Source: Acidimicrobiia bacterium
Lineage (GTDB): Bacteria > Actinomycetota > Acidimicrobiia > Spongiisociales > ZC4RG35
DNA length: 39,479 nucleotides
Direction of reading: 5' to 3'
NCBI GenBank assembly: GCA_012270885.1
Contig: JAAXHN010000027.1
Location: 1 to 39,479 of the forward strand
Part shown: positions 2,404 to 12,366 of the stretch, in pieces
Layout of the letters: every line of letters begins with the position of its first letter
How positions within the stretch are numbered: position 1 is the first letter of the stretch
Position numbers and translations under genes: made by a program
Notes under the pieces: model-generated
What the model saw: the letters and a program-made list of their open reading frames with translations, nothing else
Databases searched by the model: none
Told to the model about the DNA's origin: nothing

Positions 2404-4857
2404 TCAGCCGTCCCCGTTTTCGGTAGGAACGATCTCGAACGCCGACAGCGTCTCATCCTCTCCCACCTGCATGGCCTTTACCCCGGTGGCGTACCGACCC
2501 TGGGTGCTCACGGAAGAGACCTCGGTGCGAATGGCGATTCCCCTCGAGGAGATCAGCATCACTTCGGTCTCAGGCCCCACCGCCCGGGCCCCGACCAACA
2601 TGCCCCTCGCCCTGGAGAGCTTGATGGCGATCACTCCCTGCCCTTTCCTCTTGCGCAATGCAAAGAGGCTCATCTTGGTTCGCTTTGCAAATCCTTTGGA
2701 GGTGACCAGCAGGACTTCGTTCCCCTCCATATCCGAGCAAGCGCCCACCACCCTGTCGTTTTCCAGTAACCGAATCCCAATGACACCGCGGGTAGCTCTT
2801 CCCAACGGGCGAATGCCCCCCTCGTGGAAGCGGAGTCCCTGCCCTTTCTCGGTGAAGATCAACAGATCGTTGTCGCCGTTGGTGGTGCGCACCGCCACCA
2901 ATTCGTCGCCGGGCGACAGGTTTATAGCCCGGAGAGTCTTCTGACGGGAGTCATAAGCCTTCAGATCAGTCTTTTTCACCATCCCCTGACGGGTGAACAT
3001 CACCAGGTATTTCACCGTCTCGTAATCGCGGGTGTCGATGATCGCCTCGATTCGTTCCTCCGGCTCGATGGGAAGAACGGCATGGGCCAATACTCCTTTG
3101 CCGGTCCGGGACTGGCGGGGGATCTCGTGGGCCCGCAGCCGGTGCACCACTCCCCGGTTGGTGAAGAACAAAAGGTAGGAGTGGGCGGTGGTGTGAACCA
3201 GATGCGAGATGACATCGTCCTCGGCCAGCCCGGCGGCCTTCACCCCCCGGCCGCCCCGTCCCTGGGTGCGATAGGACTTGGCATCCACCGACTTCACGTA
3301 CCCGCTCCGGGAGACGGTGACGATCAACTCCTCGTCGGCGATGAGGTCCTCGATCGACATCTCGCCCAATTCGCCTATCAGCCTGCTGCGTCGGGCAACG
3401 GCATATTTCTCTTTGGCCTCCTCCAACGCGGCGCGGATGATCGCCCAACGGCGGGGAGGCTTGGCCAGGATGTCCTCCAGGTCGGCTATTACCTCCCGAA
3501 GCCGGGCGAGTTCGGTGGCCAGCTTCTCGGACTCGAGGGCAGTGAGGCGCCGCAGCGGCATCTCCAGAATGGCGTTGGCTTGGATTTCGGAGAGATCGAA
3601 GCGGATCTCCAGGCGAGAACGCGCCTCGGGGGTGTTGGCCGAGGACCGAATCAACTCGATCACCTCGGTGATGTTGTCCACCGCGATGCAGAGGCCCTCC
3701 AGGATGTGGGCGCGAGCAGAGGCTTTTTCCAGCCGGAAACGGGTCCTCCGCTCCACTACCTCCATCTGCTGGTCCAGATAGTGGCCAAGGGCCTCCGCGA
3801 TGCCCATTGTCCGGGGAATGCCGTCCACCAAGGCGACCATGTTGACTCCGAAGGAGTTCTGGAGTTGGGTCCGCTTGTAGAGTTGGTTCTGGACCACCTC
3901 GGGGACGGCGCCCTTCTTCAACTCGATCACCAAGCGGGTGCCCACCCGCGAGGACGACTCGTTGCGGAGATCGGCGATGCCTGCGATCTCCTTCTGGTTA
4001 ACCAGGTCGGCGATCTTCTCCAGCACCCGATCCTGGGAGACCTGGTATGGAAGCTCGGTGACAACTATGGCCGTGCGGCCGGTCCGGATTTCCTGCGGCT
4101 CTGCAACGGCCCTCACCTTAACCGAGCCCCGGCCGGTGAGGAGGGCCTCCCTCACCGTTTCGTCAGACACGATCTCTCCCCCGGAGGGAAAGTCCGGTCC
4201 CTTTACGTATTTCAGCAGGTCGTTTGGAGGACAGTCCGGATTGTCCAACAGGTAGACGCAGGCGTCTATCACCTCTCCCAGGTTGTGGGGAGGGATGTTG
4301 GTGGCCATCCCCACCGCAATTCCCTGAGCCCCGTTCACCAACAGATTGGGGAAGCGGGAGGGAAGCACAACCGGCTCGCGATGTTCCCCGTCGTAGTTCT
4401 CCACGAAGTCCACCGTGTCCTCATCGATGCCCTGCAGCATCGACATGGCGATCTCCGACAGCCGGCACTCGGTGTAGCGCATCTGGCCCGGGGGATCCTC
4501 GACGCTCCCGAAGTTTCCCTGCGGGTCCACCAGTGGGTGACCCAAGCTGAAATCCTGGCCCAAGCGGACCAGCGCATCGTAGATCGCCTGATCGCCATGC
4601 GGATGGAAGCGGGCCATTACATCTCCTACTACCGTGGCGCACTTGCGGTGCCGACCATTCGGGACCAGGTTGGCCTGGCTCATGGAGTAGATGATCCTTC
4701 GCTGCACCGGCTTCAACCCGTCCCGTACGTCGGGCAAGGCCCGTGAGACTATCACCGACATGGCGTAGTCCATAAAGGACTGCGACATCTCCTCGGTCAG
4801 GCCGATCTCCGGACCCATGTAGAGGGTGGGATTCAAGGGGGGTGTCTCCTCGGTCAT
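2404..4857 (-). CDS. gyrA: DNA gyrase subunit A
   Basis: An 817-residue breakage-reunion subunit that introduces negative supercoils with GyrB. The catalytic tyrosine is Y128 in MRYTE; the quinolone region reads HPHGDQAIYDAL at 85-96; the C-terminal beta-pinwheel carries a GyrA box of the form QGRGGRG, which separates gyrase from topoisomerase IV. ATG overlaps the gyrB stop as ATGA. Residue 90 (Ser83 in E. coli, Ala90 in M. tuberculosis) is Gln, an unusual choice at the place where quinolones make their water-metal-ion contact; Asp94 is retained. Full length for the family. Confidence 0.98.
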   Translation of the reverse strand: MTEETPPLNPTLYMGPEIGLTEEMSQSFMDYAMSVIVSRALPDVRDGLKPVQRRIIYSMSQANLVPNGRHRKCATVVGDVMARFHPHGDQAIYDALVRLGQDFSLGHPLVDPQGNFGSVEDPPGQMRYTECRLSEIAMSMLQGIDEDTVDFVENYDGEHREPVVLPSRFPNLLVNGAQGIAVGMATNIPPHNLGEVIDACVYLLDNPDCPPNDLLKYVKGPDFPSGGEIVSDETVREALLTGRGSVKVRAVAEPQEIRTGRTAIVVTELPYQVSQDRVLEKIADLVNQKEIAGIADLRNESSSRVGTRLVIELKKGAVPEVVQNQLYKRTQLQNSFGVNMVALVDGIPRTMGIAEALGHYLDQQMEVVERRTRFRLEKASARAHILEGLCIAVDNITEVIELIRSSANTPEARSRLEIRFDLSEIQANAILEMPLRRLTALESEKLATELARLREVIADLEDILAKPPRRWAIIRAALEEAKEKYAVARRSRLIGELGEMSIEDLIADEELIVTVSRSGYVKSVDAKSYRTQGRGGRGVKAAGLAEDDVISHLVHTTAHSYLLFFTNRGVVHRLRAHEIPRQSRTGKGVLAHAVLPIEPEERIEAIIDTRDYETVKYLVMFTRQGMVKKTDLKAYDSRQKTLRAINLSPGDELVAVRTTNGDNDLLIFTEKGQGLRFHEGGIRPLGRATRGVIGIRLLENDRVVGACSDMEGNEVLLVTSKGFAKRTKMSLFALRKRKGQGVIAIKLSRARGMLVGARAVGPETEVMLISSRGIAIRTEVSSVSTQGRYATGVKAMQVGEDETLSAFEIVPTENGDG

Positions 4858-6767
4858 ACGTCGAGAAAGCGGATGTCCGAGGCATGGGTCCTGATGTACT
4901 CTCGCCGGGCAGGGACGTCATCGCCCATCAGGGTCCTGAACAGTTCGTTTTCCTCCATCACCGCAGCCAGGTTGTTGGTCTGCACCCTCAGGAGGGTTCG
5001 GGTCTTGGGGTTCATGGTGGTGTCCCACAACTCATCGGGATTCATCTCTCCCAGCCCCTTGAAGCGGGTGGGGTTGATCCTCGGATACTTCTGCCGCAGT
5101 GCCTCCAACTCCATATCGTTCTTCAGGTAGATCACCCTGGCGCCGCGCTTGACCCGGTAGAGTGGGGGCTGGGCGATGTAGATATAGCCGGTTTCCAGCA
5201 GTCCCCGCATGTTGCGGAAGAAAAGAGTGAGCAGCAAAGTGCGGATGTGGGAACCATCCACGTCGGCGTCGGTGAGCAAAACGATCTTGTGGTAGCGGCA
5301 CTTCTCGATATCGAATTCCTCTCCGATGCCGGTACCCACCGCGGTGATGATCGACCGCACTTCCTTGTTCATCAACGCTTTCCCCAACCGGGCCCGCTCC
5401 ACATTGAGAATCTTCCCCCGAATGGGCAGGATGGCCTGCACCCGGGAGTCGCGCGCCTGCTTGGCCGGTCCCGCCGCCGAGTTTCCCTCCACGATGAACA
5501 ACTCGCTTTCGGAGGGATCCCGGCTGGAGCAGTCCACCAGCTTGCCGGGCAGGCTGGTCGATTCGAGGAGTGACTTGCGTCGGGTCAGCTCGCGGGCCTT
5601 GCGGGCCGCTTCGCGAGCCTTGGCCGCTCCCAGTGCCTTGGTGATGATCGCCCGGGCCTCGGGTGCGTGCTTCTCCAACCACTCCGGGAGGGCTTTGTTG
5701 AGAGCCTTCTCCACGTAGGATCGGATCTCGGTGTTGCCCAGTTTGGTCTTGGTCTGTCCCTCGAACTGAGGGTTCTTCACCCTCACCGACAGCACCGCGG
5801 TCAGCCCTTCCCGGGCATCCTCGCCAGTCAGATTGGACTCTCTCTCCTTAATGAGGTTCTTGGCCCGGCCGAACTCGTTGGCAACCTTGGTCAGGGCGCG
5901 GCGGAATCCCTCCTCGTGGGTCCCTCCCTCGGCGGTTCTGATGTTGTTGACGAATGAGAGCACGTTCTCCTGGTAACCCGTGGTCCACTGAAGCGCAACT
6001 TCCATCTCGGCTTCCTCATCCTGGTCCTCAACCACGATCTGCCGGGCGTTCACAACATCGTTCTTACGGTTCAGATGAGAAACGAAATCCCGGATCCCCC
6101 CCTTGTACTGGAAAGTCTCGGTGGGGGCCGGAGACTCCCGGGCATCGGTCAACCGGATCCGGAGGTTACGGTTAAGATAGGCCAGTTCCCGCAGCCGGGA
6201 GGCCACCGTTCCCCGGGAGAAGGTCCGCGTCTCCCGGAAGATCTCGGTGTCCGGGAGAAAGGTGATAGTGGTGCCCGTGCGGGCCACTTTCCGCCCCTTC
6301 TCCACCTGCCCCATCGGCAAGCCCTTCTCGAAACTCTGGGTCCATATCCGTCCATCTCTCCGGACCTCGGCGTCAAGTCGGTCCGAGAGGGCGTTGACCA
6401 CCGAGACTCCCACCCCGTGCAGGCCGCCCGACACTTGATAGGATCCCTTCTCGAACTTGCCCCCGGCGTGGAGCACGGTGAGCACGGTGGTCAGAGCCGA
6501 CATCCTCGTCTGGGTGTGGAGGCCTACCGGGATACCTCGTCCGTTGTCGGAGACCCGGACCGAACCATCCTTCTGAAGGGTCACGTCGATGAGCGTGCAG
6601 TGCCCGGCCATCGCCTCGTCGATGGCGTTGTCCACCACCTCCCAAACCAGGTGGTGAAGCCCTCTCGGACCGGTCGATCCGATGTACATGCTGGGCCGGC
6701 GCCGTACTGCTTCCAGGCCCTCTAAGACGACGATGTCCTTTGCGGAGTAACGCTCTGTGACAGTCAC
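4854..6767 (-). CDS. gyrB: DNA gyrase subunit B
   Basis: The ATPase subunit of gyrase. GHKL motifs are EVVDNAIDEAMAG, SDNGRGIPVG and GGLHGVGVSVVNALS; the TOPRIM domain carries ELFIVEGNSAAG and LLTDADVDGSHIRTLL; the C-terminal Mg/GyrA-interaction part ends ASDIRFLDV. I place the start at GTG 6767 because it leaves 11 residues before VLEGLEAVRRRP, as in other GyrB proteins; an in-frame GTG at 6842 would add 25 residues without a visible ribosome site. The EGDSAGG motif is altered to EGNSAAG: Asn (codon 5481-5483, residue 429 from this start) replaces the Asp equal to E. coli Asp426. A gap of about 170 bases with promoter-like elements precedes it. Confidence 0.97.
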   Translation of the reverse strand: MTVTERYSAKDIVVLEGLEAVRRRPSMYIGSTGPRGLHHLVWEVVDNAIDEAMAGHCTLIDVTLQKDGSVRVSDNGRGIPVGLHTQTRMSALTTVLTVLHAGGKFEKGSYQVSGGLHGVGVSVVNALSDRLDAEVRRDGRIWTQSFEKGLPMGQVEKGRKVARTGTTITFLPDTEIFRETRTFSRGTVASRLRELAYLNRNLRIRLTDARESPAPTETFQYKGGIRDFVSHLNRKNDVVNARQIVVEDQDEEAEMEVALQWTTGYQENVLSFVNNIRTAEGGTHEEGFRRALTKVANEFGRAKNLIKERESNLTGEDAREGLTAVLSVRVKNPQFEGQTKTKLGNTEIRSYVEKALNKALPEWLEKHAPEARAIITKALGAAKAREAARKARELTRRKSLLESTSLPGKLVDCSSRDPSESELFIVEGNSAAGPAKQARDSRVQAILPIRGKILNVERARLGKALMNKEVRSIITAVGTGIGEEFDIEKCRYHKIVLLTDADVDGSHIRTLLLTLFFRNMRGLLETGYIYIAQPPLYRVKRGARVIYLKNDMELEALRQKYPRINPTRFKGLGEMNPDELWDTTMNPKTRTLLRVQTNNLAAVMEENELFRTLMGDDVPARREYIRTHASDIRFLDV

Positions 6768-9422: not shown

Positions 9423-9607
9423 AAGCGGTTCCCCTTTCTTCGAATTTGTATTTTAAAACTACTCGTTATAGCAGTTAAAGGTGTTGTCTGTGGACAGCAG
9501 GGGGAATTCAACGAGAACCTGGGAGTATTACAAGCCTGTTTGTATACCGGTGAGGGGAGCTCTCCCCAGTGTGGCTTGCGATAGGTCAGCGATCGGTGGA
9601 GAACCAT
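9423..9607. other. Candidate replication origin (dnaA-dnaN intergenic)
   Basis: In most actinobacteria the origin lies between dnaA and dnaN. This gap has an A/T-rich stretch at 9439-9480, the best DNA-unwinding candidate nearby, followed by a DnaA-box-like CTGTCCACA (complement of 9489-9497; 8 of 9 to the actinobacterial TTGTCCACA). A second box ATATCCACA (complement of 9628-9636; 8 of 9 to TTATCCACA) sits just inside the dnaA 3' end. No dense box cluster is visible, so the origin would be compact, or part of it lies in the larger gap upstream of dnaA. Confidence 0.5.
9450..9478 (-). promoter_or_regulatory. Candidate dnaN promoter
   Basis: Minus strand TTAACT (9478-9473), a 17-base spacer and TAAAAT (9455-9450) give a near-consensus pair, placing transcription start about 20 bases before the dnaN GTG. 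It lies in the A/T-rich part of the putative origin. Confidence 0.5.
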
Positions 9608-11080
9608 CTAGTGGGTGTGGAGGGAACTGTGGATATCTGAAACCTGTTTGGCGAAACGTTTGTTGGTGGACAGTTGGGACAGGGTGCCCCGGTAAGCGGA
9701 GATTACGGTGGAATGGTCACGGCCAAAGGCCTTCCCGATGCGGGGGTAGGAGAGATCAGTGAGTTCGCGGGCCAGGTACATGGCTACTCGGCGAGCGGCA
9801 GAGGGGATCGGACGGCGATTACGATCCAGGATCTCGGCAACCGAGGTCTCGAAGGCCTTCGCGCAGGCAGCGATGATCTGTTCAGGCGTGGGAGCAGACG
9901 GCGAGAATCCCAAGAGCGGCGCCAGCAATTCGGAGGCGCTTTGAGGAGTTAGAGGCTGATTGACAAGCCTCGAGTAGGCGGATAGCCGGCGCAATGCACT
10001 CTGCAGGTCCCGGATGTTGTCGATGATCCGCTCTGCGACCATCGAGAGAACATCGTCGGGAAGAGGCCGGGGGTAGTCGGCGTTCAGGCGATGCAGGATG
10101 GCCAGACGGGTTTCCAGACATGGTGGCGCTACATCGGCCAAGAGGCCTCCGGTTACGCGGCTTCTGATGCGGTCCTCTATGGCTGTCAGGTCTCGGGGCG
10201 GGCGATCGCAACTGAGCACAATCTGGTTCCCGTCCTGTTGGAGGCTGTTGAAAGTCCAGAAGAACTCTTCCAGGGTCTGCTCTTTTCCTTCCAAGAACTG
10301 GAAGTCGTCCAAGAGAAGCATGTCGACTCGTCGGAACCGACGGCGGAAGTCCTCCATTTGTCTCCTGCCGACGCACTGGATGAAACTCTGCACGAAGGCC
10401 TCGGAGGTGCAGTAACGGATCACGAGGGAAGGATGACGTTTCCTGGCATGATTTGCGATGGCATATAGCAGATGGCTCTTCCCGACGCCGGATGCGCCGT
10501 AGATGAACAAGGGGTTGTAGATGCCTGGGTCCTCGGCGACGGTCCAGGCGGCGGCATGGGCGAAACGGTTGGACGGACCCACCTCAAAGGTGTCGAAGCG
10601 GTGGAAGTTGGAAGGATGGTGCTTGGCCGGAGATTCCGGGGCCTTCCCTCCGGCCTTGACCTGGGCGACGCCGGCCTGGCCGTTTGAGGACCGTGAAGCT
10701 CCGGTTTTGTTAACGGTGACGCGCACTCCGAGAGGAGATGTCCCGGCGCCTGCGCTGCGGGCAGCTTCCTCCACCTGCCGGATGAAGCGGGTTTTGACCT
10801 GGTTGGCCACGAATCGGCTGGGAGCCTCGACGACAATCTCCGAGGTATTCGGTGAGACTTGCAGGTCCTTGAACCAGCGGGACCAGCTGTCGGTTGAAGT
10901 ACGGGCGGTGAGGACTTTACGGAAGACGTTGTGATCGAAAAGGGTGGGGGGCGGGTTCAAGGCAGGCAAGTCTCCGGTACCTGCGAATCGGGACGATGTT
11001 GGGCTGGGGTGGCTTCGACTATCGAACCGCAGGCTTTTCGTTGAGGGGGGCGGTGAGCGGCGTAGAGGGTTTGCGGGCAC
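9608..11080 (-). CDS. dnaA: Chromosomal replication initiator DnaA
   Basis: Domain I covers about residues 50-110 of the longest frame (VFRKVLTART...WSRWFKDLQ), a short variable linker follows, then the AAA+ domain with Walker A GASGVGKS near 195-202 and Walker B LLLDDFQFL near 255-263, and the C-terminal DNA-binding domain with IGKAFGRDHSTVISA. The single-Gly FGRDH form is also found in mycobacterial DnaA. Coordinates use GTG 11080, but nothing conserved precedes residue 48; TTG at 10969 or 10960 are shorter starts with a GGAG nearby, so the N-terminus is uncertain. It is transcribed away from rpmH, as is usual. Confidence 0.95.
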   Translation of the reverse strand: MPANPLRRSPPPSTKSLRFDSRSHPSPTSSRFAGTGDLPALNPPPTLFDHNVFRKVLTARTSTDSWSRWFKDLQVSPNTSEIVVEAPSRFVANQVKTRFIRQVEEAARSAGAGTSPLGVRVTVNKTGASRSSNGQAGVAQVKAGGKAPESPAKHHPSNFHRFDTFEVGPSNRFAHAAAWTVAEDPGIYNPLFIYGASGVGKSHLLYAIANHARKRHPSLVIRYCTSEAFVQSFIQCVGRRQMEDFRRRFRRVDMLLLDDFQFLEGKEQTLEEFFWTFNSLQQDGNQIVLSCDRPPRDLTAIEDRIRSRVTGGLLADVAPPCLETRLAILHRLNADYPRPLPDDVLSMVAERIIDNIRDLQSALRRLSAYSRLVNQPLTPQSASELLAPLLGFSPSAPTPEQIIAACAKAFETSVAEILDRNRRPIPSAARRVAMYLARELTDLSYPRIGKAFGRDHSTVISAYRGTLSQLSTNKRFAKQVSDIHSSLHTH

Positions 11081-11436
11081 GACCGGTAGGACCCAACTTT
11101 GTAGGAAGAATCCATCGGTAGGGCAAGTGTAAGACCGCAGACCTGTCCTGTTGCCGAGAGGTCACACCTTCAGCCACATTCGGGTCAGATACCTATATTG
11201 ACCTGGGGAAAGGCTTCGGGGCATCCTGGGGTGGCTTGGGGTGGAAATGTCGGTTTACCTGCCCAATAACACCAGTGGGATTATGGGGTAGTTTTATTCG
11301 CGAACTCGCATTCTTTTTTGCCACAAAACAGGTTATTTTCACAGTCCGGTTACAAGGTATTCAAGCATCCCCTCTCAAGAATGCGGATTGGCGTCCTGAC
11401 GTCAACGGCTCCGACCGTGTACGTCGACCCGGTTTT

Positions 11437-11716
11437 TCACTCGGGATGGAGCGGCGCTTCGAATGCCAACCCCGCCACCATGAGAATTACCCGGTTTGAG
11501 CGGGCGGCGATGAGCTGGTTGACCCGTCCCAAGGCATCACGGAACATCCTTCCCAGAGGCGAGGCCGCCACGAGGCCCAAACCCGCCCCGTTGCTGACCA
11601 GAATCCAGGCGGCGGGGGAACCTTGCATCAGGTCGAGCAGCCGCCGGGTCTCGTCCACCCAAGCGGCGTTCGGCGTCGGGATGACCTTCCATCCCCAGCA
11701 ACAAATTGCTTACCCA
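11437..11716 (-). pseudogene. cobU: Decayed cobU (adenosylcobinamide kinase) 3' fragment
   Basis: Read on the minus strand, 11716 downwards encodes WVSNLLLGMEGHPDAE, matching the CobU segment after the conserved DCLTLW. The frame then shifts around 11655-11670 and continues as VDETRRLLDLMQGSPAAW, ILVSNGAGLGLV, PLGRMFRDALGRVNQ and VILMVAGL, the known C-terminal blocks of CobU (normally VSNEVG.GIVP, FRD..GR.NQ, V.AGLP). The N-terminal half with the P-loop is absent: upstream bases are A/T-rich and then the rpmH promoter. CobU phosphorylates and guanylylates adenosylcobinamide in B12 synthesis; this copy cannot. The conserved VSNEVG Glu is also altered. Identification rests on remembered motifs. 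Confidence 0.7.
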
Positions 11717-11823
11717 ATAATTATCTTTGTAATTAACTGGGGAGTGTGGGAAGTTATTTGGTCTTAGTACCGAGGAACGCGGTATTGCTCCGTGCTCCCT
11801 GCCGCAAGGGGGACCTAGTCGTC

Positions 11824-11852
11824 TTGACTTCCGGGGGCCACTGCGATAGCCT
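11824..11852 (+). promoter_or_regulatory. Candidate rpmH promoter
   Basis: TTGACT at 11824-11829, a 17-base spacer and TAGCCT at 11847-11852. The -35 matches 5 of 6; the -10 keeps the TA...T frame common in actinobacteria. It would give a leader of about 30 bases before rpmH. Confidence 0.45.
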
Positions 11853-11887
11853 TGTCAAAAGCTGTCGACAGTTTGCAGGTTCGGTAA

Positions 11888-12022
11888 ATGAAAAGGACCT
11901 ATCAACCAAAGGTTCGCCGTCGCAAGCGGCGGCACGGATTTCGTCATCGGATGCGCACCCGCGGGGGTCGGGCTGTAATTCGGGCCCGGAGACACAAGGG
12001 CCGCAGGCGGCTGGCTGCCTGA
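11888..12022 (+). CDS. rpmH: 50S ribosomal protein L34
   Basis: A 44-residue, very basic protein with the canonical L34 sequence: it starts [18 protein letters not shown], continues [15 protein letters not shown] and ends RRRLAA. It binds 23S rRNA in the large subunit. An AGG about 8 bases upstream of the ATG may serve as the ribosome site. It heads the rpmH-rnpA-yidD-yidC-jag unit. Its stop codon is shared with the apparent start of rnpA (CTGA). Confidence 0.97.
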
Positions 12023-12366
12023 AGTTAGGCCCGCGTTACCAGCCGCTGCGGACTTCCAGGCATTTTCGCTTGGTATTCTCGCGAGGCAAGCGATGCCGGG
12101 TGGGCGGCCTGACCGTCGTCTCGGCGCCGAATACCACAGATCGGCCAGGGATTGGCCTGGTGGCCGGTCGCCGGGTTGGAACGGCTGTCGTCCGCAATCG
12201 CGCGAAGCGACGCCTACGCGTCGCCTTGGCGGAAGTCAGCCCGCCTCCGGGCCGTGATTATGTGATCGTGGCCACCCGGCAAGTGGCGGAGGTCCCCTTC
12301 CGAACATTGGTGGCATGGCTGAGAGCCGCACTGGAAACGGTGATTGAAAATGAGAGCACAACCTGA
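12019..12366 (+). CDS. rnpA: Ribonuclease P protein component (apparent CTG start)
   Basis: The basic protein cofactor of RNase P, which matures tRNA 5' ends. Visible family blocks are [12 protein letters not shown], then [26 protein letters not shown], the RNR signature, and a C-terminal ALETVIENE helix. No ATG, GTG or TTG occurs in frame between upstream of rpmH and the conserved FRLVF. CTG at 12019 overlaps the rpmH TGA as CTGA and gives [10 protein letters not shown], which lines up with the usual RnpA N-terminus; length is then 115 residues. The frame stays open through all of rpmH up to GTG 11746 (TTG at 11824), so a Thermus-like extended RnpA is the alternative. Confidence 0.88.

Follow-up and report, generated by a model that had tools for sequence, protein, structure and literature searches.

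A truncated and frameshifted cobU between rpmH and dnaA, most likely a relic of a lost cobinamide-salvage pathway in an acidimicrobial genus

The products of cobT, cobS and cobU carry out nucleotide-loop assembly in cobinamide salvage. CobU, the adenosylcobinamide kinase / adenosylcobinamide-phosphate guanylyltransferase, is represented by the family models PF02283 and PRK05800 and by solved structures (PDB 1cbu, 1c9k and 7tm8). Here we describe a piece of a cobU gene in a 39,479-nucleotide stretch of DNA from an Acidimicrobiia bacterium (the window). The C-terminal ~70 residues of this remnant align to the end of the CobU profile, and intact orthologues from the same genus match the solved CobU chains over nearly their whole length. 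Unlike CobU, the remnant lacks the P-loop half and is frameshifted, so it would not be a functional member of the family.

Genomes with a cobinamide (Cbi) salvager pattern have been described, some of which were suggested to be losing the pathway, and precursor salvagers are very few among Actinobacteria (PMC6461909). The intact relatives in our genus resemble these salvagers in having nucleotide-loop assembly genes and no CbiC. Unlike the published cases, the operon of this genus adjoins dnaA and was apparently lost at least twice within the one genus. Our literature search found no paper joining rpmH-dnaA synteny with cobalamin.

The cobU remnant and its neighbours

The features of the locus, in window coordinates, are as follows.

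11437 to 11716, minus strand: cobU pseudogene, C-terminal half (PF02283 E 2.4e-16; CobU identity; blastn to L026 5369-6178)
11658 to 11660, minus strand: 1-base insertion that puts the two parts of the remnant in different frames (aligned pairwise with L026 and L024)
11715 to 11718, unstranded: deletion junction, rpmH-side flank joined to mid-cobU (blastn breakpoints and flanking sequences)
11718 to 11735, unstranded: damaged palindrome copy at the junction (comparison with intact relatives)
11081 to 11436, minus strand: dnaA upstream region (alignment A2)
9608 to 11080, minus strand: dnaA, same strand as cobU and downstream of it (PF00308 E 9.1e-57)
11888 to 12022, plus strand: rpmH, divergent from cobT in relatives (PF00468 E 6.2e-18)

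The remnant extends from the WVSNLLL motif to the original cobU stop codon, which is still present. Its main block is a minus-strand frame of 90 codons (11437-11709) with the translation AICCWGWKVIPTPNAAWVDETRRLLDLMQGSPAAWILVSNGAGLGLVAASPLGRMFRDALGRVNQLIAARSNRVILMVAGLAFEAPLHPE. This frame matches PF02283 at 60.2 bits (cut-off 27; E 2.4e-16), covering positions 97-166 of the 168-position profile, and NCBIfam PRK05800 at 64.6 bits over positions 98-167 of 173, below the equivalog cut-off of 161 bits. Aligned to one intact CobU of the genus the remnant reaches 116 bits, where the highest score in 2000 shuffles is 24.6, and it is 71–79% identical to the intact CobU of same-genus genomes. The upstream block (YWVSNLLLGMEGHPDAE / WVSNLLL) lies in a separate frame at about 11687-11716. 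At 11658-11660 the minus strand reads GGG where relatives have GG, one extra base in what is a CCC run on the plus strand. With this insertion and the 5′ deletion, no single open reading frame spans the whole of CobU. The P-loop kinase half, which carries GARSGKS in relatives, is absent from the remnant and from the window. The original prediction had noted CobU motifs over two minus-strand frames, a missing N-terminal kinase half and a frameshift between the blocks, and all three observations hold.

The genome carrying the window (G000) is a fragmented metagenome assembly of 2.6 Mb in 235 contigs, 94% complete with 2.66% contamination. Across this whole assembly the remnant is the sole CobU match, and no functional copy of cobU is present elsewhere in it. 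Because the P-loop is lost and the frame is broken, the remnant probably encodes no CobU enzyme, and neither kinase nor guanylyltransferase activity is expected of it.

How constrained is what remains? The remnant departs from all four intact genes at otherwise invariant sites (SNEVG to SNGAG, VPAS to VAAS). Its lineage-specific changes at codon positions 1, 2 and 3 number 6, 4 and 5; the changes peculiar to the intact genes of L024 and L025 fall mostly at the third position. This codon-position pattern suggests relaxed constraint on the remnant. Pairwise dN/dS over 67 codons, at 0.13–0.33 for the remnant, is not clearly above the 0.08–0.36 of the intact genes among themselves and does not show such relaxation; either the decay is recent or 67 codons are too few for dN/dS to have power. 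For loss of function, the missing P-loop half and the frameshift are a stronger argument than dN/dS.

The intact operon and the broken loci

We compared six genomes of the genus: G000 and five others, G001 to G005, of which G002–G005 contribute the contigs L023–L026. From their isolate names, we read G002–G005 as coming from sponge metagenomes. A CobU match occurs in all six and a whole CobU in four (G002–G005). In those four close relatives the gene order is rpmH, a divergent cobT, cobS and cobU, followed by dnaA, dnaN, recF, gyrB and gyrA; a family-model search confirmed the gene names. The neighbours in the window are the same genes in the same order; thus sister species have, at that place, the whole gene whose tail is the remnant. 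No Rfam match to a cobalamin riboswitch was found near cobT at the six loci searched.

The breakpoints are sharp. In an alignment of the window with L026, the rpmH-side match ends at 3098 and the dnaA-side match starts at 5369. Missing from the window is the L026 interval 3099-5368, about 2.27 kb, which holds cobT, cobS and the 5′ half of cobU. CobU homology reaches window position 11716 and stops there: TAATTATT on the rpmH side runs straight into GGGTAAGC of cobU, the two ends having TT (about 2 bp) in common. Breakpoints are placed within a few bases, and identity to relatives in the flanks is 87–94% on the rpmH side and 75–78% on the dnaA side. Neither cobT nor cobS was found anywhere in G000 by whole-genome search. 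The dnaA upstream region (11081-11436) is partly conserved across the genus, G001 included, and was untouched by the deletion.

The genomes with an intact operon also keep a palindrome between rpmH and cobT, TAATTACA-N4-TGTAATTA in its L024 form (L024 3050-3069; L023 3065; L025 3078; L026 3091). A looser palindrome-like site lies upstream of dnaA. We considered the palindrome as an operator common to both cob loci of the genus and rejected the idea, finding no copy near cobD.

G001 is broken at the same place in a different way. Here cobT is kept for roughly its first 49 codons and then runs, with a change of frame, into the final part of cobU; the breakpoints differ from those of the window. 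G001 is the most divergent member of the genus (75–76% identity in seven proteins versus 89–94% among the others); relationships were judged from protein identities and a DnaA tree. Because the intact G002–G005 are closer to G000 than G001 is, the two broken loci imply that the operon was lost twice, separately.

Three observations concern the flanking genes themselves. DnaA of G000 (window 9608-11080) and G001 (L034 4212-5576) are 59% identical and DnaN, GyrB and YidC 84–87%; such low conservation seems unusual for DnaA. A plus-strand frame at 11746-12366 ends as rnpA, overlaps all of rpmH in another frame and remains open in several relatives; it resembles the rpmH-rnpA overlap known from Thermus. 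Finally, an origin of replication in the dnaA-rpmH gap was rejected: GC skew reaches its minimum near 9 kb, and a box-like TATCCACA is found in the dnaA-dnaN gap instead. That gap (9423-9607), in which TATCCACA is conserved, also has an AT-rich TTTTAAA block and a local GC-skew minimum nearby, and is the likely replication origin.

Origin of the operon and the rest of the pathway

Outside the genus, but within its family and order, we examined 25 rpmH loci. In 24 of them dnaA is no more than 1.5 kb away, with no cob gene in the interval; the 25th ends early at a contig edge. Because those 24 loci have no cob gene there, cobTSU between rpmH and dnaA looks like an insertion specific to this genus among the genomes examined. 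CobT and CobU of the genus are 64–66% and 55–61% identical to their counterparts in f6, a different family of the same order, and 34–37% and 41–48% identical to the cob gene products of their own family. In trees both proteins join f6 with full support, apart from their own family. This placement fits a lateral acquisition of the operon, which we infer from the trees and identities.

A second cobamide locus is also gone. In the intact relatives it comprises cobD/cbiB, cobC (threonine-phosphate decarboxylase-like), cobQ and one further gene, which from its position and appearance we read as a PduX-like threonine kinase; its only match in a family search was a weak one to shikimate kinase. At the syntenic site in G000 (L120, contig C122, around 3900-3918) the flanks lie 17 bases apart: a clean deletion inside the contig has taken 6.27 kb and with it all four genes. 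In G001 a cobQ fragment alone is left.

CbiC is a marker of corrin-ring synthesis. It is absent from all six genomes; judged by CbiC, the genus therefore lacks corrin-ring synthesis. No PduO-type adenosyltransferase was found in the genus, and a CobA/BtuR-type corrinoid adenosyltransferase is present in all six genomes. Each genome has four to seven B12-binding matches; one such protein of G000 is nearest to MtgC-type corrinoid proteins, though below model cut-offs. The plain reading is that the genus formerly salvaged cobinamide-like precursors. With the second locus lost too, the G000 cell should depend on imported complete cobamide, and both its species and G001 would now need this from outside.

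Explanations for the remnant

The remnant is most likely a non-functional leftover of a cobinamide-salvage pathway that has been lost. We are highly confident that it is the deletion scar of a cobT-cobS-cobU operon acquired between rpmH and dnaA by the ancestor of the genus. In the sequence of events that we propose, the ancestor of this sponge-associated genus would have gained the three genes between rpmH and dnaA. In the G000 lineage, one deletion, with about 2 bp shared at its ends, would then have taken cobT, cobS and the 5′ half of cobU, and the second cobamide locus, with its kinase-like gene, would have been lost as well. The 3′ tail of cobU most likely stayed because 270 bp next to the control region of dnaA would be under little selection for removal.

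A contig that had been collapsed or mis-joined over a truly intact cobTSU would look similar, and an assembly in 235 contigs with 2.66% contamination invites the suspicion. We nevertheless regard such an artefact as extremely unlikely: cobT and cobS are missing genome-wide, the pathway's second locus has been cleanly lost inside another contig, the remnant has acquired a frameshift and lineage-specific changes, and G001 has an independent loss at the same place. The breaks are not mere sequence errors either, since 2.27 kb of cobT-cobS-cobU and the second cobamide locus have also gone. The cobU piece might have been inserted alone from elsewhere, never having belonged to an intact local gene, as its partial state and its position, in a stretch that other genera keep short, could suggest; the whole operon at the exact position, with colinear flanks, in four genomes of the genus refutes this, and we give it practically no credence.

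The tail might instead have been retained for a function, either within the promoter or upstream control region of dnaA or by encoding a short peptide that is expressed. The independent deletions in G000 and G001 both stop inside the 3′ half of cobU, and the dN/dS of the remnant is not raised. However, the conserved blocks of the dnaA upstream region fall outside the remnant, past the stop codon of cobU, no cobU tail is seen beside dnaA in relatives from beyond the genus, and the two deletions end at different positions in cobU, so we consider retention very unlikely. There is likewise a very slim chance that the operon tail or the flanking palindrome now controls dnaA or rpmH, and that independent deletions spared the same end for this reason.

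The deletion scar remains our preferred reading, and it agrees with the original prediction of a decayed B12-synthesis relic and a past insertion between dnaA and rpmH. That prediction is refined in two respects: the inserted unit is a three-gene operon, and its decay is mainly one large deletion, not gradual erosion. What this analysis adds is the ancestral, intact state of the operon and its parallel loss.

The loss of a costly vitamin pathway that leaves a gene scar is a common type of event; its place here is uncommon. The operon would have entered a gene neighbourhood that ranks among the more conserved in bacteria and then been lost at least twice separately. One sponge-associated genus offers both intact and broken states of a B12 salvage operon, and predicts which of its species would have to import complete cobamide and which could remake it from cobinamide.
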